Source: Kappaphycus alvarezii (taxonomy: Eukaryota; Rhodophyta; Florideophyceae; Gigartinales; Solieriaceae). From it: a stretch of DNA of 64,000 nt. Shown here piece by piece: positions 7,746 through 62,062 of this stretch. The DNA is taken from contig NADL03000058.1 of assembly GCA_002205965.3 (NCBI GenBank), forward strand, positions 1 to 64,000, written 5' to 3'. Numbering within the stretch: position 1 is the stretch's first letter; each line of letters starts with the position of its first letter. The position numbers and the translations under genes are program-made. The notes under the pieces are model-generated. The model had not been told where the DNA came from, made no database searches, and was given only the letters and a program-made list of their open reading frames with translations.

Positions 7746-7870
7746 CTTTCCCTTAACAGGATTAAGAGATAAAGAAAGTACAAGGCAAAACAGCAACCCA
7801 AAGTTGCAAATACCAGACCTCAATGGTCTCAGAAGAAGTGTGTGTACAGAGCTTGAGTGCTCAAACTGCA

Positions 7871-8051
7871 GGAAGTCGGACTTCCGGGCCCCTGGTTAGA
7901 CTCTCCAGGTGAGACACGGTTTCTGCGATTGACTAACCTTCCCTTGCGTGAATCAAGGTCCAGCGCAGCGCACCAACACTCTATGTGAAGGATCACTAGG
8001 AGTCGGACTCCCGGCCCCCGGTTAGACTCTCCGGGTAAGACGCGGTTTCAG
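7871..8051 (-). repeat. Duplicated leader stem-loop motif, family B
   Basis: Two diverged direct copies (7871-7937 and 7999-8051). Each contains a GAAGTC-GACTTC or GAGTC-GACTC inverted repeat, a GGGCCC/GGCCCCC block, then TTAGACTCTCC and a conserved tail. A homologous block in the same sense sits in the family D leader at 37403-37470. Confidence 0.7.
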
Positions 8052-8394
8052 CTGCCTCTCCCACCTGTGCGAGTACCACAGGCAGGTGCAAATGATCCCT
8101 ACGAGACGTCCCAAGGAGGCTACTAACACCGGCGAGTGTTCACCCTTAAAGCCAAGCCAGTCTCTTGCAGGAAATTGCGCGGCCAGTTGGATGCTCCCAG
8201 TCACTGTGCAGTACGCTACGACACCCTGTCCAGCAAACAAGTTCGCTTACTACCTGGTTTCACAACCGTCACCGTTATCTGCCCAAGAGGACCGGTGGGA
8301 GCAGCACGTCAACAAGTTCGCCGTTAGTTCAAGTCGCCAAGCTCACGTCCACGGAGTTACCCGCTTCAACCGTTCGTCGCACAGTTTGCACCTA

Positions 8395-8730
8395 GTGGAA
8401 TTCTATGGTACGATGGCACTCCACACCCGTTACTCAAGGCACTGTTCCCAAAAGGGTTCAGCCGTAGTGCAGCGATTCACCGATAGCCAAGACCACCTGC
8501 TAATCCCTGTGGAATTCTATGGTACGATGGCACTCCACACTCGTTACTCAAAGGCACTGTTCCCAAAAGGGTTCAGCCGTAGTGCAGCGATTCACCGATA
8601 GCCAAGACCACCCGCTATTCCCAGTGGAATTCTATGGTACGATGGCACTCCACACCCGTTACTCAAGGCACTGTTCCCAAAAGGGTTCAGCCGTAGTGCA
8701 GCGATTCACCGATAGCCAAGACCACCAGGA
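8395..8730 (-). repeat. Three tandem ~114 bp leader repeats, family B
   Basis: Units start at 8395, 8509 and 8624 with GTGGAATTCTATGGTACG and end near CGATAGCCAAGACCAC. They are nearly identical. A single diverged unit is found at the equivalent leader position of family E (52080-52171 and 61321-61415). Confidence 0.9.
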
Positions 8731-8941
8731 GGTCGCACCAACTGAATTGAAATCAAGATACCAAGCAACCAACAACTAGAGAAAGCAACACACAAGCACA
8801 CAACAAGAATCGCTTTCAAACCGAACAGCGCCCAAAGCGCAAAAAGAAATCAACAGCTCGCAGCGCCCAACGCGCAGAAGGAGAAACAAAAGAGCTGGAG
8901 ACAACAGCAGACCAAACAAAAAAAATGCAGCAATTAGAGTC

Positions 8942-8955
8942 CTGGGCCCATAACC
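8942..8955 (-). promoter_or_regulatory. Primer-binding site (half-tRNA iMet type), family B
   Basis: Reads GGTTATGGGCCCAG on the minus strand, immediately after the 5' LTR. It is complementary to the anticodon arm of eukaryotic initiator tRNA-Met (CTGGGCCCATAACC). Confidence 0.85.
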
Positions 8956-16974: not shown

Positions 16975-17173
16975 GTTGATGTCCTAGCGCTGACAAGAAG
17001 ACAGTAGAACTTAGATGACAAAATGAAAACTTGAAAGTAACTTGATGAGGTTGTTGACCTTGATCTTGATCTTGAGGTTAAAAGGAACGTTGAAGTTGCT
17101 GCGAAATGATGAAGGGATCAAGAGCAGTGAAGCGATGAAGTCTGCTTAGATTCGACCTTCTGGGCCCATAACC
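16975..17173 (-). promoter_or_regulatory. Leader and primer-binding site, family I
   Basis: Short leader (about 185 bp) rich in CTTGAT words. GGTTATGGGCCCAG (17160-17173, minus strand) directly follows the 5' LTR, the same half-tRNA iMet site as in families A, B and E. Confidence 0.85.
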
Positions 17174-17639
17174 TGTAAAGGTAAACGAAGTAGGGCAAAG
17201 GAAAAGGTTGCTGAAGTTGAAGAAGAACAAGTTGAAATTGTGTAGACGTCGCTTGAGGTTTTACTTGGAACCGAAAGAACAAACGGTATAAATACTCTAC
17301 CGAGCTAGAATTCCTCGTAACTGAAAGCTATCTAGAACAATCAAAGGAACAGTATAACTACCAATGGCATTTCGACTCTCCAATCCACAATACTCTAAGC
17401 GTCACTGTATTACATCCAACAACGCAAATACATGTCACTGTAATCAAGCGTAGAAAACAATTCCGCCAAATAATCTGTAAACCTGTAAGTGCATTGTTGT
17501 GTCTTTGATTCACATCTCAGCATGCCTGTCGACCGTTAGTACAACATCATCATATTGTTTCCTTGTCTGTCCACTCCTCTCAGCATGTTGGAAGTTACTT
17601 CCACCAGTAACTAAGGCTCAAAGGACTGACACCTCAACA
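17174..17639 (-). repeat. Family I 5' LTR
   Basis: 466 bp. Its outer end at 17639 is followed by TGACT, matching 12239-12243, which proves a single insertion event into family H. Confidence 0.93.
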
Positions 17640-19326: not shown

Positions 19327-20838
19327 TGTTGTTGATTTGGCAAGACGATCACATGACCCCACATCGGTGCCAAATCTCATAAGAGGCAGGAGGCATGTTC
19401 CACGTGTACACATGCACACGTGTTGAATGAAGGGTGGCCCTAAGGCATTCCGGAAGAAATCCAAAGTTCCCAGGGACGAAAGTACGATTTTGAGAGATCA
19501 GCGATTTAGAGGGCAAAATGTTGTTTATGGGGTGATTTTACGTAGGGTAGGGTGCTATAAGTGGATGATGAGTATACTGTATGAGAGATATGCTGAGGGA
19601 AGCTATGTACACGTGTACGTGGTGGCAGCTGTGTATGTGATGTACACGTGGTACAGCTAAGAGTAGAAACCTTTTTGCAGTGTTGTACAAGTACTGTACT
19701 AGTGCCAAATGAGGAACTGTACTTCGCACTGTACATCGTAATATACCAAGTACTGTACTCCTTACTGTACTTGAGTTTGTACAGTAGGAATCAATTATGG
19801 CAATACTGTCATGACTGCTAGAAAGAGGTATTTGATTTTATATTATGTATGAGGATTCTAGTTATGATTACGGGTTTTATCCAGCTGCATCCAAAAATCA
19901 GTTATGTGATTTCATCATATGTATGAGGTTTCTAGTTATGATATTGGTTTGTACAACTGCATCCAAAAATCAGTTATGTGATTCCATCATACGTATGTGG
20001 TTTTAGTTATGATATTGGTTTGTACAACTGCATCCAAAAATCAGTTATGTGATTCCATCATACGTATGATGTTTCTAGTTATGATATTGGTTTGTACAAC
20101 TGCATCCAAAAATCAGTTATGTGATTCCATCATACGTATGTGGATTTTAGTTATGATATTGGTTTGTACAACTGCATCCAAAAATCAGTTATGTGATTCC
20201 ATCATACGTATGATAATCTAGTTATATTGGTTTGTACAACTGCATCCAAAAATCAGTTATGTGATTCCATCATACGTATGTGGTTTCTAGTTATGATATT
20301 GGTTTGTACATCTGCATCCAGAAATCAGTTATGTGATTCCATCATACGTATGTGGTTTCTACTTATGATATTGGTTTGTACAACTGCATCCAAAAATCAG
20401 TTATGTGATTCCATCATATGTATGAGGTTCCTAATTATGATGAAGATTGGACCGACTGCATCCAAATCAGTTATGTGATTCTATTATACGTATGACGGAT
20501 TGAGTCCGTTATTTTGGCACAAGGGAATTCGTTTCCGGTAAGTCTGCAAAATAAGGTACTGTATTGATGTGTGTATTGGGCCAACCTATTTACACAAATT
20601 TGTCAACTTTGGAAGCAGTTCCAAATTTGCCCCTAATGACTGTTATCACCGGGCCAAGATCTTGAAATCGCGTTCAAATGGCTCAGTTTGTGGGATTCTG
20701 TTAGTGGACGCAGTGAGTTAGAAAGTAGTTGTAGGTTGTACTTAAGGCCAGGATTTTAGAGTTCCGAGTAAATTCTGGGTAGCCAAGCCCGCAACTTCAT
20801 CCGTCCAGCAAAGTCCTTCACCCTCCCGATTCCCATTA
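19327..20838 (+). repeat. Family A LTR 1
   Basis: 1512 bp. Starts TGTTGTTGATTTGG and ends CCCATTA, so the right end is TA rather than the usual CA; the same end occurs at 26963, 31921 (TCATTA) and 38822. U3 has four CACGTG palindromes between 19401 and 19650, then a cluster of CTGTAC/GTACAG hexamers. A possible splice donor TTCCG/GTAAGT lies near 20535. Confidence 0.9.
19848..20500 (+). repeat. 72 bp repeat array, nine units, LTR 1
   Basis: Nine imperfect units, each with CAGTTATGTGATTCCATCAT followed by ACGTATG and a variable GTGG/GAGG/ATGT word. The first (TTATCCAGCTGC) and last (GATGAAGATTGGACC) units are diverged and fixed in all copies; the internal ones vary in number. Confidence 0.92.
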
Positions 20839-20852
20839 GGTTATGGGCCCAG
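20839..20852 (+). promoter_or_regulatory. Primer-binding site, family A copy 1
   Basis: GGTTATGGGCCCAG immediately after the LTR; complementary to the initiator tRNA-Met anticodon arm. Confidence 0.87.
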
Positions 20853-20880
20853 TTCAACGCCGTCTCTCTCTCTGAACCCC

Positions 20881-20924
20881 GTAAGTCGCCGTGTGTTGCT
20901 GCATTGTTTTCTTGTCTATCTCAG
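20881..20924 (+). other. Candidate 44 bp leader intron, family A copy 1
   Basis: GTAAGT donor at 20881, pyrimidine-rich tract and TCTATCTCAG acceptor ending at 20924, ten bases before the ATG of the zinc-finger ORF. The same sites occur in copy 2 (27006-27049). Very short for an intron, so tentative. Confidence 0.4.
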
Positions 20925-20934
20925 TCTCTTGATT

Positions 20935-21620
20935 ATGTCTACTCGTTCCGGTAAGCTATTTGAATAATTCCATTTCTTTGCACATCGAAGTGATTCTCTT
21001 TGCACCTTTTGGTTGGTCTAAAGACTCATAATCCCAAAAGCTGTTACTGACGATCACTTCCACTTTTGTGCCTGCTTTTGCGGGGTTGTGCTAGACTCGG
21101 AATTAGCCCTGGTGCCCGAGTGCCCAGGGCTGCGACAGTTAGGACTTTGCCATCTGTGGGGAGGACAGTTGTGGAATCGATCGAAGTACTCGAACCAGAA
21201 GGACCGCCGCCAAAGACGCTCGCGCTTCCCTCGTCTAGGGAAAGGTATAGGATCCCTCGTAAGTCAGTACCTCTGGATAAGCCAATAAAGAAAGTTCAAC
21301 GCCTCTCGGCAAAGAAAGCTAAAGCCCTCGCCGATCGAGTTGCCAAGAAGGAACTAAAGGCTAAACGAAGAGTTCCGCCGAGGAACAAGAGGTACTGCAA
21401 GCTCTGTGATATTAGCTGCAATAGCGCACAGACATTCTACGATCACATCAATTCTAAGGGTCATAGGACTAGAGAGAAAAACAAGAAAAAGACCCCTAGG
21501 TGTACTGCTTGTGATAGAGTGTTCGATTCCCACGAGGTTCTCAAGCGTCACGAGAACGGGAAGGAACACTTGAAAGTAGTTTTGTCCAGAGAATTTAAAG
21601 AGATCCATTTGTTTGTTTGA
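20935..21620 (+). pseudogene. Extra 5' ORF (two U1-like C2H2 zinc fingers), family A copy 1
   Basis: Exon 1 20935-20950 (ATGTCTACTCGTTCCG), candidate intron 20951-21094 (GTAAGC...GCTAG), exon 2 21095-21620. The product is basic (KKELKAKRRVPPRNKR) with two fingers of the pattern CX2CX12HX5H: CKLCDISCNSAQTFYDH... and CTACDRVFDSHEVLKRH.... That spacing is typical of double-stranded-RNA-binding U1/JAZ-type fingers. Relative to copy 2 it lacks one C near 21118 and one near 21590, so the frame is broken at both ends. The unspliced reading gives only a ten-codon peptide. Confidence 0.7.
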
Positions 21621-21758
21621 AGCGACGTCTTTGGCCTTTGCTTTAGTCTAGAGTTTCGTGTGCTGTGTTCTTATAGAGGTGGGCTTGCCACTACAAGGGA
21701 CTATCGGTCCCCGGCTTGGGATCTTCGAACAGAACATTAGCACCTCTAGAATATTGCA

Positions 21759-22805
21759 ATGAGTAGCGGAGAAGATCAAGGAGGAGGATCGATGAAGATC
21801 GAAAAGCTCACGGATACCAATTTCTACGTGTGGAAACAGAAGATTCAGCTCCTGTTGGCCCTTCGCGATGTGGAACAGTATATTACTGATGGCACCGTTC
21901 CTGAAGATGAACAATCTTCCACTTACAAGGCATGGAAGCAAGGGGATCGAAAGGCCCGGGCCATCATCGGCCTGTCGCTGTCCGATGATCACCTGGATCA
22001 TGTGAGAGATGCTGTCACAGCCAAAGAAATGTGGGACGCCATCTTGGAAGTTTTTGAGCGCCACACATTACTAAATAAGCTGGCGGCCCGGAGAGACTTC
22101 TACACGGTCACCATGCTAGACAATGAGAAAGTTTTGCCATACATAGGACGTGTGCGACACCTAGCAGCTCGCTTAAAGTCAATGGGAGTCATCATTGATG
22201 ACAAGGAAATGGCTATGGCAGTTCTCAATGGTCTTCCGCAGAGGTTTCAAAATCTCATTGTAGCGCTTGACGCTCTTGGATCCGAAGATAACACGTTCGG
22301 AGTAGAATATGTAAAAAGTCGCCTGCTCCAAGAGGAGCAACGTGCATCGATGAGGCTTACTAGAAGGCAGAATCCGCCAAGTTCTGCTCTTATTGGGCAC
22401 ATCCCTGAGGCAAGGCGTGTTTCGACTTTGACATGCACCAACTGTGGTCACAATGGACACTCCGCTGCCCGCTGCTGGGGAAAGGACATCAACGGAAGGC
22501 GACCACCGCCACCTGACCGGTTCCTACGTAGACAGTCACAGAAGCCTACTGCGATGATTGCTCAAGAGCAAGAAGATCTGGAAATTAATGAAGTCGAGTA
22601 CATATGTCTGATGAACAAGGTAGATAACTCTGGTATCAACATAACCTCAAACACTTGGCTTATCGACTCTGGATGCTCCGCGCACATGACATTTGACAAG
22701 AGACTGTTCTCCGACTACAGGGAGGTCTCAAACAGCCGCGTAGAAATGGGAACAAAAGCGTGTGCAGTAGTAGCTGGAGTCGGGACCGTCCCATTACGCT
22801 TTTAG
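21759..22805 (+). CDS. gag and protease N-terminus, family A copy 1
   Basis: Starts MSSGEDQGGGSMKIEKLTD. Gag helices (NFYVWKQKIQLLLALRD, LLNKLAARRDFYTV, GLPQRFQNLIVALD), knuckle CTNCGHNGHSAARC, then protease WLIDSGCSAHMTFDKRLF. The frame is lost near 22793, where copy 2 has one more C in a C-run. The preceding ORF ends 140 bases upstream; a good acceptor (GTGTTCTTATAG, ending 21676) lies between. Confidence 0.9.
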   Translation: MSSGEDQGGGSMKIEKLTDTNFYVWKQKIQLLLALRDVEQYITDGTVPEDEQSSTYKAWKQGDRKARAIIGLSLSDDHLDHVRDAVTAKEMWDAILEVFERHTLLNKLAARRDFYTVTMLDNEKVLPYIGRVRHLAARLKSMGVIIDDKEMAMAVLNGLPQRFQNLIVALDALGSEDNTFGVEYVKSRLLQEEQRASMRLTRRQNPPSSALIGHIPEARRVSTLTCTNCGHNGHSAARCWGKDINGRRPPPPDRFLRRQSQKPTAMIAQEQEDLEINEVEYICLMNKVDNSGINITSNTWLIDSGCSAHMTFDKRLFSDYREVSNSRVEMGTKACAVVAGVGTVPLRF

Positions 22806-23872
22806 TGAGCGGAGTTCAAAAGTCATGCAAGCTCACCAATGTGCTGCACGTTCCAAGCTTTGCTTTTTCCCTAATCTCTGTACGTAAGATGGTCGATAAT
22901 GGATTTGACGTTGAGTTCGTTCGTGACAAGTGCACTGTGAAGAGGAGTGACTGCATCGTGGCTACTGCCACAAGTCGAGGAGAGCTGTATGTGCTTGACA
23001 CATGTAACGAGGTTCATTCGGCGCACAAAGCCTCTTTGAAGACATGGCATGAAAGATTGGCCCACGTTCACACTCAAGGAATATTGTCCATGGCTCGTAA
23101 GAACGTGGTAAGTGGACTTCATATCTCCTCTTCAGATATAACAAGAGACGCTAGCTCATCTTCTGACTGTGAATCTGTGACATGTGATGCGTGTGTGTTA
23201 GGAAAAGCAACTCGTGCTGTGATTCCTAAACAGCGCTCTGGAGGCAGGGCCAAACATTTGCTAGACTTGGTCCATTCGGACGTCTGCGGCCCACTCCAAG
23301 TACAGTCAGTAGGTGGTGCTAGATACTTTGTCACTTTTATCGATGACCACTCAAACTGGAGTGTTGTCTATCCGATGAAGAGTAAAGATGAAACGTTCCA
23401 TTTTTATCAGAAGTTTGCCCAATATGCCTTCACACACACTGGTCAACGCGTGAAAGTGCTTCGATCTGATCGTGGAGGAGAGTATCTTTCTTCAGAGTTC
23501 CAATCCTTTCTATCGTCACAAGGAACTGTTCATCAAACGACCGCTGCATACACACCTGAACAGAATGGTGTGGCAGAACGGCTCAATCGTACCCTGATTG
23601 ATCTCGTCAGGTCTATGCTGTCCCATATGAAGGTTCCGAAAGCTTTCTGGGCTGAAGCTCTTGATAACGCAGTTTACGTTCGCAATCGTGTCACGACAAG
23701 AGCTTTGGGTGGTCTCGTTACTCCATTTCACCTATGGATGAAGAAAAAGCCCGATGTATCTCACCTACGTGTGTTTGGATGTCAATGCTGGTACAAGGTG
23801 CCTGGTAATGAGGTGCGTAAACTTGACGACCGCGCAACAACGGGAATGTTTGTTGGGTATCCCGGGAACTAA
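22793..23872 (+). CDS. Protease C-terminus and integrase, family A copy 1
   Basis: NVLHVPSFAFSLISVRKM completes the protease. TWHERLAHVHTQGI plus CDACVLGKATRAVIP is the HHCC module. VHSDVCGPL, RSDRGGEYLS and TPEQNGVAERLNRT give the three catalytic residues. The C-terminus WAEALDNAVYVRNRVTTRA is intact up to VGYPG, where one extra C shifts frame. Confidence 0.9.
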   Translation: MTLLVSGVQKSCKLTNVLHVPSFAFSLISVRKMVDNGFDVEFVRDKCTVKRSDCIVATATSRGELYVLDTCNEVHSAHKASLKTWHERLAHVHTQGILSMARKNVVSGLHISSSDITRDASSSSDCESVTCDACVLGKATRAVIPKQRSGGRAKHLLDLVHSDVCGPLQVQSVGGARYFVTFIDDHSNWSVVYPMKSKDETFHFYQKFAQYAFTHTGQRVKVLRSDRGGEYLSSEFQSFLSSQGTVHQTTAAYTPEQNGVAERLNRTLIDLVRSMLSHMKVPKAFWAEALDNAVYVRNRVTTRALGGLVTPFHLWMKKKPDVSHLRVFGCQCWYKVPGNEVRKLDDRATTGMFVGYPGN

Positions 23873-23990
23873 GGCCTACAAAATTTGGGATGACAATTTT
23901 ACATCGCATTGTTATTTCCAGGGATGTGCAGTTCGATGAGTCGAGACCAGGGGCTTGCTCTTACGATGAACATTTTCCGATGATAATGAT

Positions 23991-25859
23991 ATGGACGTTG
24001 ACCCAGTGGAGACGACCGATACTGACGAAATTGAGTCTGAAACATCTAATGGTGATAATGAACATGGCATTGAAACAGGGTCACCGGCGGAGGTTGAGAA
24101 CTTTCAAAGTCAAGGTATTGAGCCCGACTCAACTAATGAGACTTTGCAACCAGAAGAAGTGAGTGGTGAGCAAGATGCTGGTCCCGGCGATGTGGAACCT
24201 CGCCGCTCCACTCGTTCACGACGCCCACCCCGACAGTGGTGGACAGGCCTGGTGGGAACCAGCTTACTCACACCTTCCTGTGGCGACATCAACATACCGA
24301 ACTCCTTTAAAGAGGCGATGGGTGGACCACAACCACAGTTCTGGCAGAAAGCGATTGATAAGGAGCTAGAGTCCCAACGCAAAAACAAAACCTGGGCACT
24401 AGTTCCACGATCGGAAGGTGCCAATATTCTAACTTCTCGCTGGGTATTTACTGTAAAGGACATGCCGGACGATAACGGCACGTTGACTCAAAAGGGAAAA
24501 GGTCGCCTGGTTGTGCGGGGCTTTCAACAAATTGAGGGGATTGATTACTCAGAGACTTTTGCGCCGGTGATCAAATTTACAACGATTCGATTGTTGTTGG
24601 CGATTGTAGCCCACTTCGATTTAGAGCTTCATCAAATGGACGTGGTCACGGCCTTTCTGAACGGTGACTTAGAAGAGGATATTTATATGGAGCAGCCTGA
24701 AGGTATCGTTGACTCTTCCAGGCCCAATCATGTTTGCAAACTTCTCAAGGCTATCTATGGTCTTAAGCAAGCGAGTCGACAATGGCACAAAAAGATTGAC
24801 GATTTCCTTATTCACACGCTTGGCTTCAAGACTACGAGAAGTGACGCCTGTCTATATACAAACATATCAGAAAAAGGTGTTATGCTGATTGCCCTATATG
24901 TGGATGACTTGCTTCTTGCGGGAAGTGACCTGAAAGCCGTGACCTGGATGAAAGGTGAACTGAACAAGAGATTTGAGATGAAAGATTTAGGCGAGGCCAA
25001 AAAGTGCATTGGGCTTGAAATAAGTAGAAAAAGGGTCCCTAGACGGATCTATATCTCGCAGACAGAGTATGCCAAGTCCATTTTGAAACGTTTTGGTATG
25101 GCCAGTTGCAATCCCGTGAGGACTCCGATGGAACAAGGATTACACCCTGAGATGTCAACTAGCCCGTATTGCGATGTACCATATCGACAGATCATTGGCT
25201 GCTTAATGTTTCTTATGGTAGGGTCACGTCCAGATCTTGCATATGTGGTGGGAAAACTGTCCCAACACTGTGAGAACCCTCGCGAGGACCACTGGCAAGC
25301 AGCCAAACGAGTTCTGAGATATATCAAAGGAACGCTCTCACTAGGTGTAATTCTAGATGGAAATCTCCCAGTGCAAACTCTAGAGGGCTTCAGCGATGCA
25401 GACTGGGGTGGTTGCTTGGACTCGAGAAAGTCCACCAGTGGATATGTGTTCAAACTGTGTGGGGGAGCTATTAGTTGGTCATCTAGGAGACAAACGGTCG
25501 TTGCGAAATCCACATGCGAAGCGGAGTATATTGCACTGTGTGAGGCTTGCAAAGAGGCAGCTTGGCTCAGGTGCCTTCTTGCAGACGCATTGGGAAAGTC
25601 GAAAGACAGCACAGTTACAATCGGGTGTGATAATGCTGGTACAATAGCGTTTGCGGGTAACGAAGGAGTGAACAGGCGAAATAAGCACATTGACATATCA
25701 TATCATTTTGTCCGAGATGCTGTGACTCGAAAGATTGTTTCACTGTTTCACGTACCTTCTACAGATATGCCAGCAGATATACTCACCAAGCCTCTTGGTC
25801 GCATTCAATTCATACAATGCATAAAATCTCTAGGCCTCGGAGAGCTGCACGATGCTTAG
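23991..25859 (+). CDS. Integrase-RT linker, reverse transcriptase and RNase H, family A copy 1
   Basis: 622 codons. Acidic linker, RRSTRSRRPPRQWW, RT ([24 protein letters not shown] near 24894-24908; FEMKDLGEAKKCIGLEI), RNase H (GFSDADWGGCLDSRKSTSGYVF, STCEAEYIALC, KHIDISYHFVRD, DILTKPLGRIQF). Ends about 20 bases before the PPT, leaving no room for an env-like gene. This is the longest intact pol frame in the window. Confidence 0.95.
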   Translation: MDVDPVETTDTDEIESETSNGDNEHGIETGSPAEVENFQSQGIEPDSTNETLQPEEVSGEQDAGPGDVEPRRSTRSRRPPRQWWTGLVGTSLLTPSCGDINIPNSFKEAMGGPQPQFWQKAIDKELESQRKNKTWALVPRSEGANILTSRWVFTVKDMPDDNGTLTQKGKGRLVVRGFQQIEGIDYSETFAPVIKFTTIRLLLAIVAHFDLELHQMDVVTAFLNGDLEEDIYMEQPEGIVDSSRPNHVCKLLKAIYGLKQASRQWHKKIDDFLIHTLGFKTTRSDACLYTNISEKGVMLIALYVDDLLLAGSDLKAVTWMKGELNKRFEMKDLGEAKKCIGLEISRKRVPRRIYISQTEYAKSILKRFGMASCNPVRTPMEQGLHPEMSTSPYCDVPYRQIIGCLMFLMVGSRPDLAYVVGKLSQHCENPREDHWQAAKRVLRYIKGTLSLGVILDGNLPVQTLEGFSDADWGGCLDSRKSTSGYVFKLCGGAISWSSRRQTVVAKSTCEAEYIALCEACKEAAWLRCLLADALGKSKDSTVTIGCDNAGTIAFAGNEGVNRRNKHIDISYHFVRDAVTRKIVSLFHVPSTDMPADILTKPLGRIQFIQCIKSLGLGELHDA

Positions 25860-25870
25860 GTCATGTAATC

Positions 25871-25879
25871 GAGGGGGGG
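25871..25879 (+). promoter_or_regulatory. Polypurine tract, family A copy 1
   Basis: GAGGGGGGG directly before the LTR start at 25880. Confidence 0.85.
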
Positions 25880-26963
25880 TGTTGTTGATTTGGCAAGACG
25901 ATCACATGACCCCACATCGGTGCCAAACCTCATAAGAGGCATGAGGCATGTTCCACGTGTACACATGCACACGTGTCGAATGAAGGGTGGCGCTAAGGCA
26001 TTCCGGAAGAAATCCAAAGTTCCCAGGGACGAAAGTACGATTTTGAGAGATCAGCGATTTAGAGGGCAAAATGTTGTTTATGGGGTGATTTTACGTAGGG
26101 TAGGGTACTATAAGTGGATGATGAGTATACTGTATGAGAGATATGCTGAGGAAAGCTATGTACACGTGTACGTGGTGGCAGTTGTGTATGTGATGTACAC
26201 GTGGTACAGCTAAGAGAAGAAACCTTTTTGTGCAGTGTTGTACACGTACTGTACTAGTGCCAAATGAGGAACTGTACTTCGCACTGTACATCGTAATATA
26301 CCAAGTACTGTACTCCTTACTATACCTGAGTTTGTACAGTAGGAATCAATTATGGCAATACTGTCATGACTGCTAGAAAGAGGTATTTGATTTTATATTA
26401 TGTATGAGGATTCTAGTTATGATTAGGGTTTTATCCAGCTGCATCCAAAAATCGGTTATGTGATTTCATCATATGTATGAGGTTTCTAGTTATGATTGGT
26501 TTGTACAACTGCATCCAAAAATCAGTTATGTGATTCCATCATATGTATGAGTTCGTAATTATGATGAAGATTGGACGACTGCATCCAAAAATCAGTTATG
26601 TGATTCTATTTTACGTATGACGGATTGAGTCCGTTATTTTGGCACAAGGGAATTCGTTTCCGGTAAGTCTGCAAAATAAGGTACTGTATTGATGTGTGTA
26701 TTGGGCCAACCTATTTACACAAATTTGTCAACTTTGGAAGCAGTTCCAAATTTGCCCCTAATGACTGTTATCACCGGGCCAAGATCTTGAAATCCGCTCA
26801 AATGGCTCAGTTTGTGGGATTCTGTTAATGGACGCAGTGAGTTAGAAAATAGTTATAGGTTGTACTTAAGGCCAGGATTTTAGAGTTCCGAGTAAATTCT
26901 GGGTAGCCAAGCCCGCAACTTCATCCGTCCAGCAAAGTCCTTCACCCTCTCCGATTCCCATTA
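25880..26963 (+). repeat. Family A LTR 2, shared by copies 1 and 2
   Basis: 1084 bp, bounded on the left by the PPT of copy 1 and on the right by the primer-binding site of copy 2, so one LTR serves two elements. It has only three of the 72 bp units, against nine and eight in its neighbours. Confidence 0.93.
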
Positions 26964-26977
26964 GGTTATGGGCCCAG
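26964..26977 (+). promoter_or_regulatory. Primer-binding site, family A copy 2
   Basis: GGTTATGGGCCCAG, identical to copy 1 and adjacent to LTR 2. Confidence 0.87.
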
Positions 26978-27059
26978 TTCAACGCCGTCTCTTTCTCTGA
27001 ACCCCGTAAGTCGCCGTGTGTTGCTGCATTGTTTTCTTGTCTATCTCAGTCTCTTGATT

Positions 27060-27725
27060 ATGTCTACTCGTTCCGGTAAGCTATTTGAATAATTCCATTT
27101 CTTTGCACATCGAAGTGATTCTCTTTGCACCTTTTGGTTGGTCTAAAGACTCATAATCCCAAAAGCTGTTACTGACGATCACTTCCACTTTTGTGCCTGC
27201 TTTTGCGGGGTTGTGCTAGACTCGGAATTAGCCCTGGTGCCCCGAGTGCCCAGGGCTGCGACAGTTAGGACTTTGCCATCTGTGGGGAGGACAGTTGTGG
27301 AATCGATCGAAGTACTCGAACCAGAAGGACCGCCGCCGAAGACGCTCGCGCTTCCCTCGTCTAGGGAAAGGTATAGGATCCCTCGTAAGTCAGTACCTCT
27401 GGATAAGCCAATAAAGAAAGTTCAACGCCTCTCGGCAAAGAAAGCTAAAGCCCTCGCCGATCGAGTTGCCAAGAAGGAACTAAAGGCAAAACGAAGAGTT
27501 CCGCCGAGGAACAAGAGGTACTGCAAGCTCTGTGATATTAGCTGCAATAGCGCACAGACATTCTACGATCACATCAATTCTAAGGGTCATAGGACTAGAG
27601 AGAAAAACAAGAAAAAGACCCCTAGGTGTACTGCTTGTGATAGAGTGTTCGATTCCCACGAGGTTCTCAAGCGTCACGAGAACGGGAAGGAACACTTGAA
27701 AGTAGTTTTGTCCCAGAGAATTTAA
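27060..27725 (+). CDS. Extra 5' ORF with two U1-like zinc fingers, family A copy 2
   Basis: Proposed gene: exon 1 27060-27075, intron 27076-27219 (GTAAGC to GCTAG, 144 bp), exon 2 27220-27725, about 173 codons. Exon 2 is open throughout but has no usable ATG of its own, which is the main reason to propose splicing. Domain order: Pro/Val-rich N-terminus, basic stretch (KKAKALADRVAKKELKAKRR), finger 1 CX2CX12HX5H, basic linker REKNKKKTPR, finger 2 CX2CX12HX5H, short tail. The family precedent for such fingers is dsRNA or RNA-hybrid binding in the nucleus. A role in silencing suppression, RNA export or packaging is inference only. Confidence 0.72.
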
Positions 27726-27885
27726 AGAGATCCATTTGTTTGTTTGAAGCGACGTCTTTGGCCTTTGCTTTAGTCTAGAGTTTCGTGTGCTGTGTTCTTA
27801 TAGAGGTGGGCTTGCCACTACAAGGGACTATCGGTCCCCGGCTTGGGATCTTCGAACAGAACATTAGCACCTCTAGAATATTGCA

Positions 27886-28711
27886 ATGAGTAGCGGAGAA
27901 GATCAAGGAGGAGGATCGATGAAGATCGAAAAGCTCACGGATACCAATTTCTACGTGTGGAAACAGAAGATTCAGCTCCTGTTGGCCCTTCGCGATGTGG
28001 AACAGTATATTACTGATGGCACGTTCTGAAGATGAACAATCTTCCACTTACAAGGCATGGAAGCAAGGGGATCGAAAGGCCCGGGCCATCATCGGCCTGT
28101 CGCTGTCCGATGATCACCTGGATCATGTGAGAGATGCTGTCACAGCCAAAGAAATGTGGGACGCCATCTTGGAAGTTTTTGAGCGCCACACATTACTAAA
28201 TAAGCTGGCGGCCCGGAGAGACTTCTACACGGTCACCATGCTAGACAATGAGAAAGTTTTGCCATACATAGGACGTGTGCGACACCTAGCAGCTCGCTTA
28301 AAGTCAATGGGAGTCATCATTGATGACAAGGAAATGGCTATGGCAGTTCTCAATGGTCTTCCGCAGAGGTTTCAAAATCTCATTGTAGCGCTTGACGCTC
28401 TTGGATCCGAAGATAACACGTTCGGAGTAGAATATGTAAAAAGTCGCCTGCTCCAAGAGGAGCAACGTGCATCGATGAGGCTTACTAGAAGGCAGAATCC
28501 GCCAAGGTCTGCTCTTATTGGGCACATCCCTGAGGCAAGGCGTGTTTCGACTTTGACATGCACCAACTGTGGTCACAATGGACACTCCGCTGCCCGCTGC
28601 TGGGGAAAGGACATCAACGGAAGGCGACCACCGCCACCTGACCGGTTCCTACGTACAGTCACAGAAGCCTACTGCGATGATTGCTCAAGAGCAAGAAGAT
28701 CTGGAAATTAA
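27886..28711 (+). pseudogene. gag, family A copy 2
   Basis: Same Gag as copy 1. Two C losses near 28021-28026 shift the frame after ITDG, and a 2 bp loss near 28655 (CTACGTACAG against CTACGTAGACAG) shifts it again after the knuckle CTNCGHNGHSAARC. Confidence 0.88.
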
Positions 28712-30122
28712 TGAAGTCGAGTACATATGTCTGATGAACAAGGTAGATAACTCTGGTATCAACATAACCTCAAACACTTGGCTTATCGACTCTGGATGCT
28801 CCGCACACATGACATTTGACAAGAGACTGTTCTCCGACTACAGGGAGGTCTCAAACAGCCGCGTAGAAATGGGAACAAAAGCGTGTGCAGTAGTAGCTGG
28901 AGTCGGGACCGTCCCCATTACGCTTTTAGTGAGCGGAGTTCAAAAGTCATGCAAGCTCACCAATGTGCTGCACGTTCCAAGCTTTGCTTTTTCCCTAATC
29001 TCTGTACGTAAGATGGTCGATAATGGATTTGACGTTGAGTTCGTTCGTGACAAGTGCACTGTGAAGAGGAGTGACTGCATCGTGGCTACTGCCACAAGTC
29101 GAGGAGAGCTGTATGTGCTTGACACATGTAACGAGGTTCATTCGGCGCACAAAGCCTCTTTGAAGACATGGCATGAAAGATTGGCCCACGTTCACACTCA
29201 AGGAATATTGTCCATGGCTCGTAAGAACGTGGTAAGTGGACTTCATATCTCCTCTTCAGATATAACAAGAGACGCTAGCTCATCTTCTGACTGTGAATCT
29301 GTGACATGTGATGCGTGTGTGTTAGGAAAAGCAACTCGTGCTGTGATTCCTAAACAGCGCTCTGGAGGCAGGGCCAAACATTTGCTAGACTTGGTCCATT
29401 CGGACGTCTGCGGCCCACTCCAAGTACAGTCAGTAGGTGGTGCTAGATACTTTGTCACTTTTATCGATGACCACTCAAACTGGAGTGTTGTCTATCCGAT
29501 GAAGAGTAAAGATGAAACGTTCCATTTTTATCAGAAGTTTGCCCAATATGCCTTCACACACACTGGTCAACGCGTGAAAGTGCTTCGATCTGATCGTGGA
29601 GGAGAGTATCTTTCTTCAGAGTTCCAATCCTTTCTATCGTCACAAGGAACTGTTCATCAAACGACCGCTGCATACACACCTGAACAGAATGGTGTGGCAG
29701 AACGGCTCAATCGTACCCTGATTGATCTCGTCAGGTCTATGCTGTCCCATATGAAGGTTCCGAAAGCTTTCTGGGCTGAAGCTCTTGATAACGCAGTTTA
29801 CGTTCGCAATCGTGTCACGACAAGAGCTTTGGGTGGTCTCGTTACTCCATTTCACCTATGGATGAAGAAAAAGCCCGATGTATCTCACCTACGTGTGTTT
29901 GGATGTCAATGCTGGTACAAGGTGCCTGGTAATGAGGTGCGTAAACTTGACGACCGCGCAACAACGGGAATGTTTGTTGGGTATCCGGGAACTAAGGCCT
30001 ACAAAATTTGGGATGACAATTTACATCGCATTGTTATTTCCAGGGATGTGCAGTTCGATGAGTCGAGACCAGGGGCTTGCTCTTACGATGAACATTTCTC
30101 CGATGATAATGATGGACGTTGA
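28656..30122 (+). CDS. Protease and integrase, family A copy 2
   Basis: One continuous frame from just after the knuckle: WLIDSGCSAHMT, the complete protease, HHCC module, DD35E core and C-terminus through VGYPGTKAYKIWDDNLHRIVISRDVQFDE. It lacks the two insertions that break copy 1 here. It ends at a stop after SDDNDGR because of small indels. Confidence 0.9.
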   Translation, partial: QSQKPTAMIAQEQEDLEINEVEYICLMNKVDNSGINITSNTWLIDSGCSAHMTFDKRLFSDYREVSNSRVEMGTKACAVVAGVGTVPITLLVSGVQKSCKLTNVLHVPSFAFSLISVRKMVDNGFDVEFVRDKCTVKRSDCIVATATSRGELYVLDTCNEVHSAHKASLKTWHERLAHVHTQGILSMARKNVVSGLHISSSDITRDASSSSDCESVTCDACVLGKATRAVIPKQRSGGRAKHLLDLVHSDVCGPLQVQSVGGARYFVTFIDDHSNWSVVYPMKSKDETFHFYQKFAQYAFTHTGQRVKVLRSDRGGEYLSSEFQSFLSSQGTVHQTTAAYTPEQNGVAERLNRTLIDLVRSMLSHMKVPKAFWAEALDNAVYVRNRVTTRALGGLVTPFHLWMKKKPDVSHLRVFGCQCWYKVPGNEVRKLDDRATTGMFVGYPGTKAYKIWDDNLHRIVISRDVQFDESRPGACSYDEHFSDDNDGR

Positions 30123-30468
30123 CCCAGTGGAGACGACCGATACTGACGAAATTGAGTCTGAAACATCTAATGGTGATAATGAACATGGCATTGAAACAGG
30201 GTCACCGGCGGAGGTTGAGAACTTTCAAAGTCAAGGTATTGAGCCCGACTCAACTAATGAGACTTTGCAACCAGAAGAAGTGAGTGGTGAGCAAGATGCT
30301 GGTCCCGGCGATGTGGAACCTCGCCGCTCCACTCGTTCACGACGCCCACCCGACAGTGGTGGACAGGCCTGGTGGGAACCAGCTTACTCACACCTTCCTC
30401 TCGGTCGCATTCTATTCATAAAATGCATAAAATCTCTGGGCCTCGGAGAGCTGTACAATGCTTAGGTC
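30106..30468 (+). pseudogene. pol remnant: linker fused to RNase H tail, family A copy 2
   Basis: Acidic linker and RRSTRSRRPP as in copy 1, then a direct junction near 30400 from the RT N-terminal linker to LGRILFIKCIKSLGLGEL, the last ~20 residues of pol. About 1.5 kb (copy 1 24280-25793) is missing. CCT occurs at both breakpoints. Confidence 0.9.
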
Positions 30469-30484
30469 ATGTAATCGAGGGGGG

Positions 30485-31921
30485 TGTTGTTGATTTGGCA
30501 AGACGATCACATGACCCCACATCGGTGCCAAATCTCATAAGAGGCATGAGGCATGTTCCAGGTGTACACATGCACACGTGTTGAATGAAGGGTGGCCCTA
30601 AGGCATTCCGGAAGAAATCCAAAGTTCCCAGGGACGAAAGTACGATTTTGAGAGATCAGCGATTTAGAGGGCAAATGTTGTTTATGGGGTGATTTTACGT
30701 AGGGTAGGGTACTATAAGTGGATGATGAGTATATACTGTATGAGAGATATGCTGAGGGAAGCTATGTACACGTGTACATGGTGGCGGTTGTGTATGTGAT
30801 GTACACGTGGTACAGCTAAGAGTAGAAACCTTTTGTGCAGTGTTGTACACGTACTGTACTAGTGCCAAATGAGGAACTGTACTTCGCACTGTACATCGTA
30901 ATATACCAAGTACTGTACTCCTTACTGTACTTGAGTTTGTACAGTAGGAATCAATTATGGCAATACTGTCATGACTGCTAGAAAGAGGTATTTGATTTTA
31001 TATTATGTATGAGGATCTAGTTATGATTACGGGTTTTATCCAGCTGCATCCAAAAATCGGTTATGGATTTCATCAATGTATGTGGTTTCTAGTTATGATA
31101 TTGGTTTGTACAACTGCATCCAAAAATCAGTTATGGGATTCCATCATACGTATGTGGTTTCTAGTTGATATTGGTTTGTACAACTGCATCCAAAAATCAG
31201 TTATGGGATTCCATCATACGTATGTGGTTTCTAGTTATGATATTGGTTTGTACAACTGCATCCAAAAATCAGTTATGTGATTCCACCATACGTATGTGGT
31301 TTCTAGTTATGATATTGGTTTGTACAACTGCATCCAAAATCAGTTATGTGATTCCATCATATGTATGTGGTTTCTAGTTATGATATTGGTTTGTACAACT
31401 GCATCCAAAAATCAGTTATGTGATTCCATCATATGTATGAGTTCGTAATTATGATGAAGATTGGACCAACTGCATCCAAAAATCAGTTATGTGATTCCAT
31501 CATATGTTTGAGGTTCCTAATTATGATGAAGATTGGACCGACTGCATCTAAAATCAGTTATGTGATTCTATTATACGTATGACGGATTGAGTCCGTTATT
31601 TTGGCACAAGGGAATCGTTTCCGGTAAGTCTGCAAAATAGGTACTGTATTGATGTGTGTATTGGGCCAACCTATTTACACAAATTTGTCAACTTTGGAAG
31701 CAGTTCCAAATTTGCCCCTAATGACTGTTATCACCGGGCCAAGATCTTGAAATCCGCTCAAATGGCTCAGTTTGTGCGATTCCGTTAGTGGACGCAGTGT
31801 GTTAGAAGTAGTTGTAGGTTGTACTTAAGGCCAGGATTTTAGAGTTCCGAGTAAATTCTGGTAGCCAAGTCCTCAACTTCATCCGTCCAGCAAAGTCCTT
31901 CACCCTCCCCGATTCTCATTA
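30485..31921 (+). repeat. Family A LTR 3
   Basis: 1437 bp with eight 72 bp units, preceded by the PPT at 30477-30484 and followed directly by family D gag. The first bases after it (CTTTG) do not repeat the bases before LTR 1 (TACGC), so the array is not a single clean insertion. Confidence 0.9.
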
Positions 31922-37668: not shown

Positions 37669-38822
37669 TGTTGTTGATTTGGCAAGACGATCACATGACC
37701 CCACATCGGTGCCAAACTCATGAGAGGCATGAGGCATGTTCCACGTGTACACATGCACACGTGTTGAATGAAGGGTGGCCCTAAGGCATTCCGGAAGATA
37801 TCCAAAGTTCCCAGGGACGAAAGTACGATTTGAGAGATCAGCGATTTAGAGGGCAAAATGTTGTTTATGGGGTGATTTTACGTAGGGTAGGGTACTATAA
37901 GTGGATGATGAGTATACTGTATGAGAGATATGCTGAGGAAGCTATCTACACGTGTACGTGGTGGCAGTTGTGTATGTGATGTACACGTGGTACAGCTAAG
38001 AGTAGAAACCTTTTGTGCAGTGTTGTACACGTACTGTACTAGTGCCAAATGAGGAACTGTACTTCGCACTGTACATCGTAATACACCAAGTACTGTACTC
38101 CTTACTATACCTGAGTTTGTACAGTAGGAATCAATTATGGCAATACTGTCATGACTGCTAGAAAGAGGTATTTGATTTTATATTATGTATGAGGATTCTA
38201 GTTATGATTACGGGTTTTATCCAGCTGCATCCAAAAATCGGTTATGTGATTTCATCATATGTATGAGGTTTCTAGTTATGATATTGGTTTGTACAACTGC
38301 ATCCAAAAATCAGTTATGTGATTCCATCATATGTATGTGGTTTCTAGTTATGATATTGGTTTGTACACTGCATCCAAAAATCAGTTATGTGATTCCATCA
38401 TATGTATGAGGTTCGTAATTAGGATGAAGATTGGACCGACTGCATCTAAAATCAGTTATGTGATTCTATTACACGTATGACGGATTGAGTCCGTTATTTT
38501 GGCACAAGGGAATTCGTTTCCGGTAAGTCTGCAAAATAAGGTACTGTATTGATGTGTGTATTGGGCCAACCTATTTACACAAATTTGTCAACTTTAGAAG
38601 CAGTTCCAAATTTGCCCTAATGACTGTTATCACCGGGCCAAGATCTTGAAATCCGCTCAAATGGCTCAGTTTGTGCGATTCTGTTAGTGGACGCAGTGAG
38701 TTAGAAAGTAGTTGTAGGTTGTACTTAAGGCCAGGATTTTAGAGTTCCGAGTAAATTCTGGGTAGCAAAGCCCGCAACTTCATCCGTCCAGCAAAGTGCT
38801 TCACCCTCTCCGATTCCCATTA
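37669..38822 (+). repeat. Family A LTR without internal region
   Basis: Full-length LTR (1154 bp, four 72 bp units) from TGTTGTTGATTT to CCCATTA. The left flank is a family D leader, the right flank a family G pol, and the adjoining 5 bp differ (TTGGT against TTGTC). It is a solo LTR whose flanks have since been rearranged, or a recombinant. Confidence 0.85.
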
Positions 38823-60507: not shown

Positions 60508-62048
60508 GACTACGTCTTTATCCAAGACCCTTTGTATCTGAAACCTCTATTACCACGTATGCAGTGAGTATGCAAAGTCCTCTGTTCGGGTATCCCAAGC
60601 CGGCGACCGATAGTCGCTTGTCACGGCAAGCCTTTCCCTATAAGAAGTTTGCAGCGTTTACTCAAAGACACGTGGTGTTTAATTTCCAACTCTTTACCTC
60701 TTTAGTTTTCCTCCTCTTTACCTCTTTACCACCTCTTTATTTGTGCCTTAGGGCGCTACCCCTGTATATCGGCCAGTGCTGGTCTTTCAACTTTGAGCGC
60801 AATCCGTGTGCCACGAGTAAGCACAGCGACTTTACCTGTAGACGGCCAGGAATTTTCAGCCACTACCCCGAAAGGTCCCCGCAGCAAAGGGCGTCTTACC
60901 ACAATCACAGTCTTTCCGTACTAACTCAGGCGCGTTTCCTTCCGGACTGTGTTGCTTGACTTCCGTCGTACTCGTGTGAAAGCACTCAAGGTCACCAATG
61001 AGCCTCGTCCTTCCGTGCACAGCACGTATCTACACCTCAACAGAAGTATAGCCAGCAGGTACCAAAGTACAAGTGCAGAACACTAGTACCCGGTATGCTA
61101 CCAGAGTAAGGAATTAGAAGACAGTCGTTCCCTCTCCGACCACGGGCGATGGTGTTTCGCGTACGTATCGGTCGTTCAAGCGAGGAGCGTCTCTGTCCCG
61201 CCGGCGCGCAAAAGGGCCACTGCAACGGACCGACTCGGCTGGTACACCGTGATTCCCACCGGGAATCGGGTTCAGTCTTACGACTTCTGACAACTCGCGT
61301 TATCGACCGCGTGGGTTTGTATGGTACGGTCCGTCCAACTCGCGTTACACAAAGGCACTGTTCTCAAAAGAGTACAGCCGGTGAGAGGATCACAAAACCG
61401 ATTGCCAAGACCACGATTCGGCAAAAGAATCGGACAAACTTGGGCGGACCCCGGCACTCTGTCTTCTTCTTTTCCGTTGCCGTGAAGGCTTTCCAAGAGT
61501 GCAAGGGGTATCAACAACCAGGCCTAGATTCCTCCTCAAACAACAAGGCCAATATTTCCAAACAATAAACTCGAGCTGACAATTGCCGAATGACCACGAC
61601 CACCACAAAAGAGAGAAAACCAAACCAACAAACAAATGACCAGAGCAATGACACCACAAAGCACTCAGGATCCTCACACAGAGTGCTTGACAACAAAATT
61701 GTTCTCAACAGCAGTAGAGCACAAACAACGATTGCTCTGATTCAACACACAATGGTAACCACAAAAACACTCAGGATCCACACACAGAGTGCTTGACAAC
61801 CTTAAAGTTGGTTCGTATCAACAAAAGCTTCCAACAACACACAATGAACCACAAAAACACTCAGGATCCACACACAGAGTGCTTGACAATCACCAAATGG
61901 GTCCTAACAAAGACAAGAACCCAACAACAATCACCACAAAGCAACAAATGACAACACCAACAGCACCAACAACACAGAGAAAGCAATTACCTCAACGTCA
62001 ACGTCAACGGTTGAGGGACGGATCAAGCGGAAAGAGCGGTAGCGTGGA
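60508..62048 (-). other. 5' leader of family E copy 2
   Basis: Non-coding, 1.54 kb. The family B-like leader unit lies at 61321-61415. Three hairpin repeats lie at 61659-61688 (8 bp arms AAGCACTC/GAGTGCTT with a 14 base loop), 61765-61794 and 61855-61882. Confidence 0.82.
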
Positions 62049-62062
62049 CTGGGCCCATAACC
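62049..62062 (-). promoter_or_regulatory. Primer-binding site, family E copy 2
   Basis: GGTTATGGGCCCAG on the minus strand, directly after the 5' LTR. Confidence 0.87.

Follow-up and report, generated by a model that had tools for sequence, protein, structure and literature searches.

The family A elements and the copia nest around them

Several copia elements are nested across the window (the whole 64-kb stretch of DNA that was analysed). The two copies of family A are laid out LTR-internal-LTR-internal-LTR, with LTRs that start at 19327, 25880 and 30485 and end at 20838, 26963 and 31921. The element is assigned to Ty1/copia by its LTRs and by its domain order, integrase lying ahead of reverse transcriptase: the gag of copy 1 matches Retrotran_gag_2 (E 5.1e-35), gag_pre-integrs and rve are found in 22889-23872, and RVT_2 (E 3.1e-70) in 23991-25859 (Pfam). 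The RT/RNase H part is missing from copy 2. Because gag retains its own CCHC knuckle, CTNCGHNGHSAARC, the idea that the zinc-finger protein described below replaces the nucleocapsid was discarded. The sequence GGTTATGGGCCCAG directly follows the family A LTRs and is also found at the 5' end of the leaders of families B, C and D; we take it to be a primer site of the half-tRNA initiator-Met type, as in Drosophila copia. Drosophila copia and BARE1 both possess a copia-type primer site. The features of the family A tandem that concern this report are as follows.

20839-20852, plus strand: copy 1 counterpart of the primer-binding site
About 21095-21598, plus strand: copy 1 counterpart of zinc-finger exon 2, frame-broken
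21759-22805, plus strand: gag of copy 1, an open frame
25880-26963, plus strand: LTR common to both copies (3' of copy 1, 5' of copy 2), placed by LTR boundaries
26964-26977, plus strand: primer-binding site GGTTATGGGCCCAG, carrying the first AUG (26968) of a 10-codon upstream ORF (uORF)
27060-27075, plus strand: zinc-finger exon 1 as predicted by the splice model, 16 nt, its AUG with A at -3 and T at +4
27063-27885, plus strand: stretch from the zinc-finger AUG to the gag AUG with no ATG in any sense frame, assessed by dinucleotide shuffles
27076-27219, plus strand: predicted phase-1 intron, GTAAGC...GTGCTAG, placed by sequence and by junction residues in relatives
27220-27725, plus strand: zinc-finger exon 2, Met-free
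27522-27590, plus strand: finger 1, CX2CX12HX5H (zf-met best stretch, 106-129)
27627-27695, plus strand: finger 2, CX2CX12HX5H (zf-C2H2_jaz best stretch, 141-164)
27824-27838, plus strand: hairpin GGGAC-TATCG-GTCCC, common to family A, family C and an outside element (L001), identified by compensatory changes
27886-28711, plus strand: gag of copy 2, frame-broken

The internal parts of the two copies (20840-25870 and 26965-30475) are 99.48% identical across 3444 bp, and gap openings (11) outnumber mismatches (5). Owing to this near-identity and to the middle LTR that they have in common, the copies do not count as two independent witnesses. No obvious target-site duplication accompanies the tandem (19327-31921); recombination between copies and an assembly artefact are both possible origins. 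The family A LTRs hold repeats at a spacing of about 72 bp, the number of which varies by LTR (19797-20497, 26222-26653, 31096-31512 and 38137-38513).

A zinc-finger gene ahead of gag

The interval from the primer site (26964) to the gag AUG (27886) holds a gene for a zinc-finger (ZnF) protein. An earlier note on this DNA had described a basic ORF of about 170 codons at this place in both family A copies. A protein gene does lie there, but it is not one continuous ORF: the frame from the ATG at 27060 stops after 10 codons, and a product of 173 amino acids, ending at 27725 and with a computed pI of 10.5, is obtained only once 27076-27219 is removed. In copy 1 the gene (ATG at 20935) is out of frame, with two one-base gaps relative to copy 2. 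The ZnF ORFs of the two copies differ by only two substitutions, each at a third position and silent. Both one-base gaps sit in runs of C, which suggests that homopolymer sequencing errors may account for some of the broken frames.

The two fingers, CKLCDISCNSAQTFYDHINSKGH and CTACDRVFDSHEVLKRHENGKEH, have the exact spacing CX2CX12HX5H that had been claimed for them, and the proposed comparison with U1-type profiles gave matches above the curated cut-offs of Pfam for both zf-C2H2_jaz (E 2.2e-14; 53.6 bits against a cut-off of 22.6) and zf-met (E 8.2e-11; 42.3 against 21.2). The N-terminal half of the protein has no Pfam match above cut-off. A profile of the ZnF family, run against the six frames of the window, detected the gene in the two family A copies (21051-21617 and 27147-27722, E about 1e-70 at each), the next best match having an E of 1.7; within the window the gene is thus confined to family A, as previously stated, and this search did not find it in families B, C and D.

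Relatives of the zinc-finger protein

A first protein search with the ZnF sequence returned 7 matches, and a profile built from those 7 returned 67, of which 65 are members of the family (P0001-P0065). P0001 is the window's own protein and was left out, leaving 64 relatives. Their identity with the window protein, taken across the aligned part, is 36-64%, and for 54 of them it falls between 40 and 60%. Conservation extends beyond the fingers to the blocks EVxEP and YRIPR and to a basic segment, RLSxKKAxxLAD. With the window protein included, zf-met was found in 44 and zf-C2H2_jaz in 42 of the 46 members scanned; likewise including the window, 39 of the 51 members of at least 150 amino acids have two exact fingers, nine have one and three have none. 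The sole cellular proteins among the 67 profile matches are two animal ZMAT3 proteins (E 2.7e-4 and 8.7e-4), which leaves the host origin proposed in the earlier note conjectural. Scans of viral contigs with ZnF, gag and RT alignments found no relative, nor did a scan of genome contigs with the ZnF alignment. It is the 64 database relatives, not the two copies in the window, that place the gene beyond chance, and judged by them it is a real accessory gene, old and conserved, rather than a one-off capture.

The assignment of the fingers to the U1/JAZ/ZFR class was upheld by the Pfam matches to zf-C2H2_jaz and zf-met, although the best matches among solved structures are classical DNA-binding C2H2 arrays. 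At E up to 0.1 the family profile matched 40 solved structures, foremost among them PRDM9 (E 3.2e-9), through the second finger. Weaker matches to RNA-related structures include ZNF622 (0.0045), the RNA-binding ZFa (0.005), KIN17 (0.0083) and, weakest of those given, the U4/U6.U5 23-kDa protein (0.036). In a PDB search with the single sequence, a match to PSTPIP1 (E 0.01) falls in a lysine-rich stretch and was set aside as noise by its look; ZMAT2 came next (E 0.025). Fingers of the JAZ/ZNF346, ZMAT and KIN17 types have only the finger spacing and core in common with the ZnF protein.

Whatever the mode of its expression, the ZnF protein might be a suppressor of RNA silencing rather than a factor for export, stability or packaging. 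The finger type is that of a double-stranded RNA-binding group, of which ZNF346 and rice DRG9 bind double-stranded RNA (PMC10957929), but the structure matches are mostly to DNA-binding C2H2 arrays and only weakly to some RNP proteins, and we regard suppression as doubtful though by no means far-fetched. Specificity for double-stranded RNA cannot be assumed from finger type, and the matches leave room for DNA binding. We infer that the element's own RNA is the target that deserves most weight, for export, protection or splicing control, and give silencing suppression less.

Linkage to copia gag outside the window

A search with gag returned 182 matches; among the 120 listed, an organism is stated for two, both Chondrus crispus, and five come from the EukProt set. 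ZnF and gag contigs were paired by exactly equal length and same source rather than by contig name, using all 65 ZnF entries and the 115 of the 120 listed gag entries for which a length was given, in each case that of the longest contig on record for the protein. At least eight ZnF contigs equal a listed gag contig in length, and seven of these share the source 'ena' (5716, 6744, 8095, 8632, 14822, 16251 and 22351 bases); the eighth pair (2858 bp; P0038 from jgi, P0100 from ena) was not counted because the sources differ. Among the 22 ZnF contigs longer than 4 kb, at least seven are paired with a listed gag contig, against a mean of 0.07 and a maximum of 2 in 5000 jittered trials. The search was limited to proteins of 0.55-1.75 times the query length, a range outside which intact gag-pol ORFs fall, and since the listed gag matches are 120 of 182, unpaired contigs are not evidence against linkage. 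Across eight pairs (window included; several sequences truncated) the identities of ZnF and gag correlate (r 0.62, permutation p 0.012); a single pair, P0056/P0132, is discordant. Over 223 residues, the gag on the paired contig of 8095 bases shares 85% identity with a gag of Chondrus crispus, and we therefore take red algae to be the probable host group. Linkage of the ZnF gene to copia gag beyond the window is strongly indicated by these pairings, and the earlier description of a copia element with an additional gene ahead of gag is borne out by conserved relatives on contigs paired with copia gag.

The earlier note had also raised the single insertion of an unrelated gene before the two copies were duplicated; in the form considered here, a host gene entered the ancestor of the tandem copies once, by chance, and has no role in the element. 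The near-identity of the copies, their common LTR and the lack of the gene in the other families of the window fit such an event. It is nevertheless highly implausible in the face of 64 diverged relatives, of the seven or more that are paired with copia gag, including the one akin to Chondrus crispus, and of the correlated divergence of ZnF and gag; moreover, the ORF keeps to the ban on AUG codons that characterizes the leader (see below).

When the gag alignment was run against genome contigs, one relative (L001, contig JALZUP010000260.1) was found among 509 matching stretches, with 59% identity in gag. No ZnF gene is recognisable in the 465 nt upstream of the L001 gag. As the gene is also missing from families B, C and D, it is optional, or dispensable, in the wider group. 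The L001 contig is filed under a bacterial metagenome-assembled genome (Robiginitomaculum), yet it is a copia element with one open gag-pol frame of 1388 codons, which points to eukaryotic contamination in that assembly.

The predicted intron

Exon 2 of the ZnF gene is without any methionine, so its AUG must be supplied from elsewhere. A GT-AG intron of 144 nt is predicted at 27076-27219, and both copies have an in-phase donor with an AUG exon. A branch-point-like sequence, TTACTGAC, lies at 27169-27176, about 45 nt ahead of the acceptor. Ten candidate acceptors would be in frame; that at 27219 was chosen because its junction is common to the relatives. Where predicted proteins of relatives read through the junction, L, P, T, S or I usually stands just ahead of it and D or V just after it: L/D in the window, P/D in P0005, I/D in P0019, T/D in P0021, S/D in P0025, L/V in P0028 and T/V in P0048. 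Such residues are compatible with a phase-1 YAG acceptor, the first having a codon that ends in YA and the second a codon that starts with G. P0064, a degenerate member, is an exception (L/H). P0053 and P0064 have LLTI, compatible with TACTAAC, 16-17 codons upstream of the junction; P0046 has LLLTI and no recognisable junction, and P0060 reads through the junction with the branch-point-like LLTI missing. The N-terminus of P0052, MSTELVPRV, resembles the one predicted for the window after splicing, MSTRSDSELALVPRV; alternatively, the MST of P0052 may represent the end of an intron. The splice sites are thus predictions drawn from nucleotide sequence and from predicted proteins.

Without splicing, the ZnF protein might instead start at a non-AUG codon near the start of exon 2, in the manner of ORF I of rice tungro bacilliform virus (RTBV), which begins at AUU (PMC5902531). 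The Met-free exon 2 would suit such a start, as would the coinciding predicted starts of many relatives (MLDLELV or MRSAPG), of which the first codon may be GTG or TTG. Initiation of this kind seems improbable, since the usual junction residues fit an intron end (those of P0064 do not), the LLTI upstream of the junction in P0053 and P0064 fits one too (P0046 offering no junction for comparison), and the AUG exon with its in-phase donor is found in both copies. Removal of the predicted intron is the preferred account of how the ZnF frame acquires its start codon.

Leaders without start codons

Between the ZnF AUG and the gag AUG, 824 nt contain no ATG, against 8.5 expected, and none of 2000 dinucleotide shuffles was as low. 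The equivalent part of copy 1 (20938-21758) has none against 8.4 expected, a count that is not independent of copy 2. The gag gene itself has a normal number (21, with 18.6 expected). Taken alone, the individual parts show a weaker lack (exon 2, P 0.003; intron, P 0.0475). Three other families of the window have leaders of the same kind.

7746-8954, minus strand: family B leader, 1209 nt, its sole ATG that of the primer site; no ZnF gene
16975-17175, minus strand: family D leader, 201 nt, its sole ATG that of the primer site
60508-62061, minus strand: family C leader, 1554 nt, its sole ATG that of the primer site; no ZnF gene

The 465 nt upstream of the L001 gag (1-465) are likewise free of ATG. 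Pooled over family A copy 2, family B, family C and L001, the leaders have 0 ATG in 4033 nt against 45.9 expected, and in each of these four, ATG is the only trinucleotide absent among those expected more than three times. The antisense word CAT is not depleted in the pooled leaders (39, against 32.8 expected). Base composition was considered as the source of the ATG-free leader and was ruled out by the shuffle test together with this antisense control.

The same avoidance is seen in the relatives. Among the 62 ZnF members of at least 100 amino acids (window included), 53 have no internal methionine, and the total is 11 in 10146 residues (0.11%), whereas methionine makes up 3.35% of the N-termini of the 120 listed gag matches and is present in all 120. 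By our reading, some of the nine exceptions (e.g. P0051, P0054 and P0065) are truncated or frame-shifted. Since leaders that have no ZnF gene are free of AUG too, the avoidance is no proof that the ZnF gene is translated; it is general in these copia leaders and, on the analysis given here, serves gag.

The context of the ZnF AUG is moderate, with A at -3 but T at +4. The primer-site AUG, which lies ahead of it, has a strong context (G at -3 and +4), and in families A to C it starts a uORF of 5-11 codons. Owing to this strong context, reinitiation must be assumed in addition to scanning.

The hairpin, which has a TATCG loop, precedes gag by about 47 to 100 nt in family A, family C and L001, with matches to TATCGGT at 60612 and 51375 (both minus strand) and at L001 395; it is flanked by GGCTTGCC and GGCTTGG. 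In an alignment of four sequences, two of which are near-identical family C copies, three of the five pairs are changed on both sides and all 20 cells are paired. Its presence in elements that lack the ZnF gene indicates that it is not specific to that gene. A search of Rfam with 26900-27960 gave no match at E up to 1. A second block is shared by the family C leader (1179-1318 of 60508-62061, minus strand) and L001 (148-288), 82% identical over 142 columns; with its single-base gaps and its last 22 bases identical, it looks like an RNA element rather than coding sequence.

The hairpin and some further splice-like sites raise the possibility that translation of gag uses an mRNA spliced separately, or an IRES or ribosome shunt near the hairpin just upstream of gag, while another spliced mRNA encodes the ZnF protein and leaky scanning plays no part. 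Candidate sites for a gag mRNA are GTAAGT at 27006 and TTCTTATAG, ending at 27803, and both copia and BARE are known to form a gag mRNA by splicing (PMC3735527). The acceptor at 27803 was weakened as a candidate, its AG not being retained in L001 (TATACGG). Under all these routes an AUG-free leader would be needless, yet ATG is absent where 45.9 are expected, and on the sense strand only; such routes to gag are rather unlikely.

Proposed expression and function

The reading that we favour, and consider reasonably probable, is that the ZnF protein is translated from spliced RNA as the product of a first cistron and that ribosomes arrive at gag through leaky scanning or reinitiation, the gene being an accessory gene whose RNA-binding role is the more conjectural step. 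The ZnF gene would be a long-standing accessory gene of a Ty1/copia lineage, most likely a red-algal one, with gag-pol as the second cistron. Removal of the short phase-1 intron would join the 16-nt exon that bears the start codon to the Met-free exon 2, and the spliced RNA would yield a strongly basic protein of 173 amino acids with two fingers of the U1/JAZ/zf-met type. We infer that ribosomes scan the copia leader. In family A they would meet the AUG codons in the order primer-site uORF, ZnF, gag; those bypassing the ZnF AUG, or reinitiating late downstream of the uORF, would reach gag, its AUG being the next one for them because none lies in any frame between the two. Unspliced RNA should favour gag, since there the ZnF AUG opens a frame of only 10 codons. 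The ZnF protein may bind structured or double-stranded RNA, most simply that of the element itself, and may aid its survival or its exit from the nucleus.

A more elaborate, and correspondingly improbable, variant would make the ZnF protein a regulator resembling Rev: basic, produced from spliced RNA only, probably nuclear and with fingers distantly like those of splicing proteins, it would bind the element's leader, restrain splicing and direct unspliced RNA into packaging and the translation of gag. If this were true, the intron, the AUG-free leader and the protein would form a single feedback switch, with an early phase producing ZnF and a late phase producing gag-pol.

Comparison with known elements

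Several known systems resemble parts of the arrangement proposed for family A. In RTBV, ribosomes scan about 900 nt through ORFs without internal AUGs to reach the main polyprotein, and RTBV and the badnaviruses (Caulimoviridae) are like family A in that the ORFs ahead of the main polyprotein are internally free of AUG (PMC5902531). However, RTBV is a pararetrovirus rather than a Copia element; ribosomes shunt past its leader, and AUU serves as the start codon of its ORF I (PMC5902531). In family A, by contrast, the first ORF probably depends on splicing, and it is the leader itself that is free of AUG.

Accessory ORFs upstream of gag have a precedent in another superfamily of LTR elements, for the MDG1 group belongs to Gypsy. 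Its members 412, mdg1 and Stalker2 have conserved ORFs, sORF1 and sORF2, between the 5' LTR and gag, and in this respect they are like family A (PMC11952523). The MDG1 elements are found in insects, sORF2 encodes a membrane protein that is FAST-like, and their transcripts gave no sign of being spliced (PMC11952523); family A differs from them also in its pol domain order, which is of the Copia and not the Gypsy type (Pfam).

Within Copia, the RNAs of Drosophila copia and of barley BARE1 are partly spliced, and a 2013 paper on BARE gave these as the only demonstrated cases of splicing in the superfamily (PMC3735527). That splicing raises Gag output and yields no accessory protein, unlike the splicing proposed for family A (PMC3735527). 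Plant LTR elements carry extra conserved ORFs, some upstream of gag-pol and most between pol and the 3' LTR; in the portion covered of the review that describes them, the word 'zinc' is absent (PMC7264820). In those parts of the open-access literature that were covered, there was no description of AUG-free leaders in Copia, or of any Copia element that has a zinc-finger ORF ahead of gag. The earlier opinion that the arrangement is not a standard one therefore holds for Copia within that literature, but not for LTR elements at large, given the upstream ORFs of the MDG1 group (PMC11952523). As far as we can tell from these sources, family A combines features of known kinds, and its expression logic is new for Copia.

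As far as the searches reach, family A would be the first case in Copia of a conserved accessory protein encoded before gag. The accessory gene comes together with a predicted intron and with a strict exclusion of start codons from leaders that reach 1.5 kb in length. This exclusion extends to four copia families of the window and to the available part of one outside relative, and it bears on the way in which Gag is translated in Copia elements that have a long leader and a single polyprotein ORF. A further suggestion from the family A gene is that accessory genes in the first cistron of LTR elements may escape notice, since a spliced gene that lacks methionine resembles noise to gene finders.
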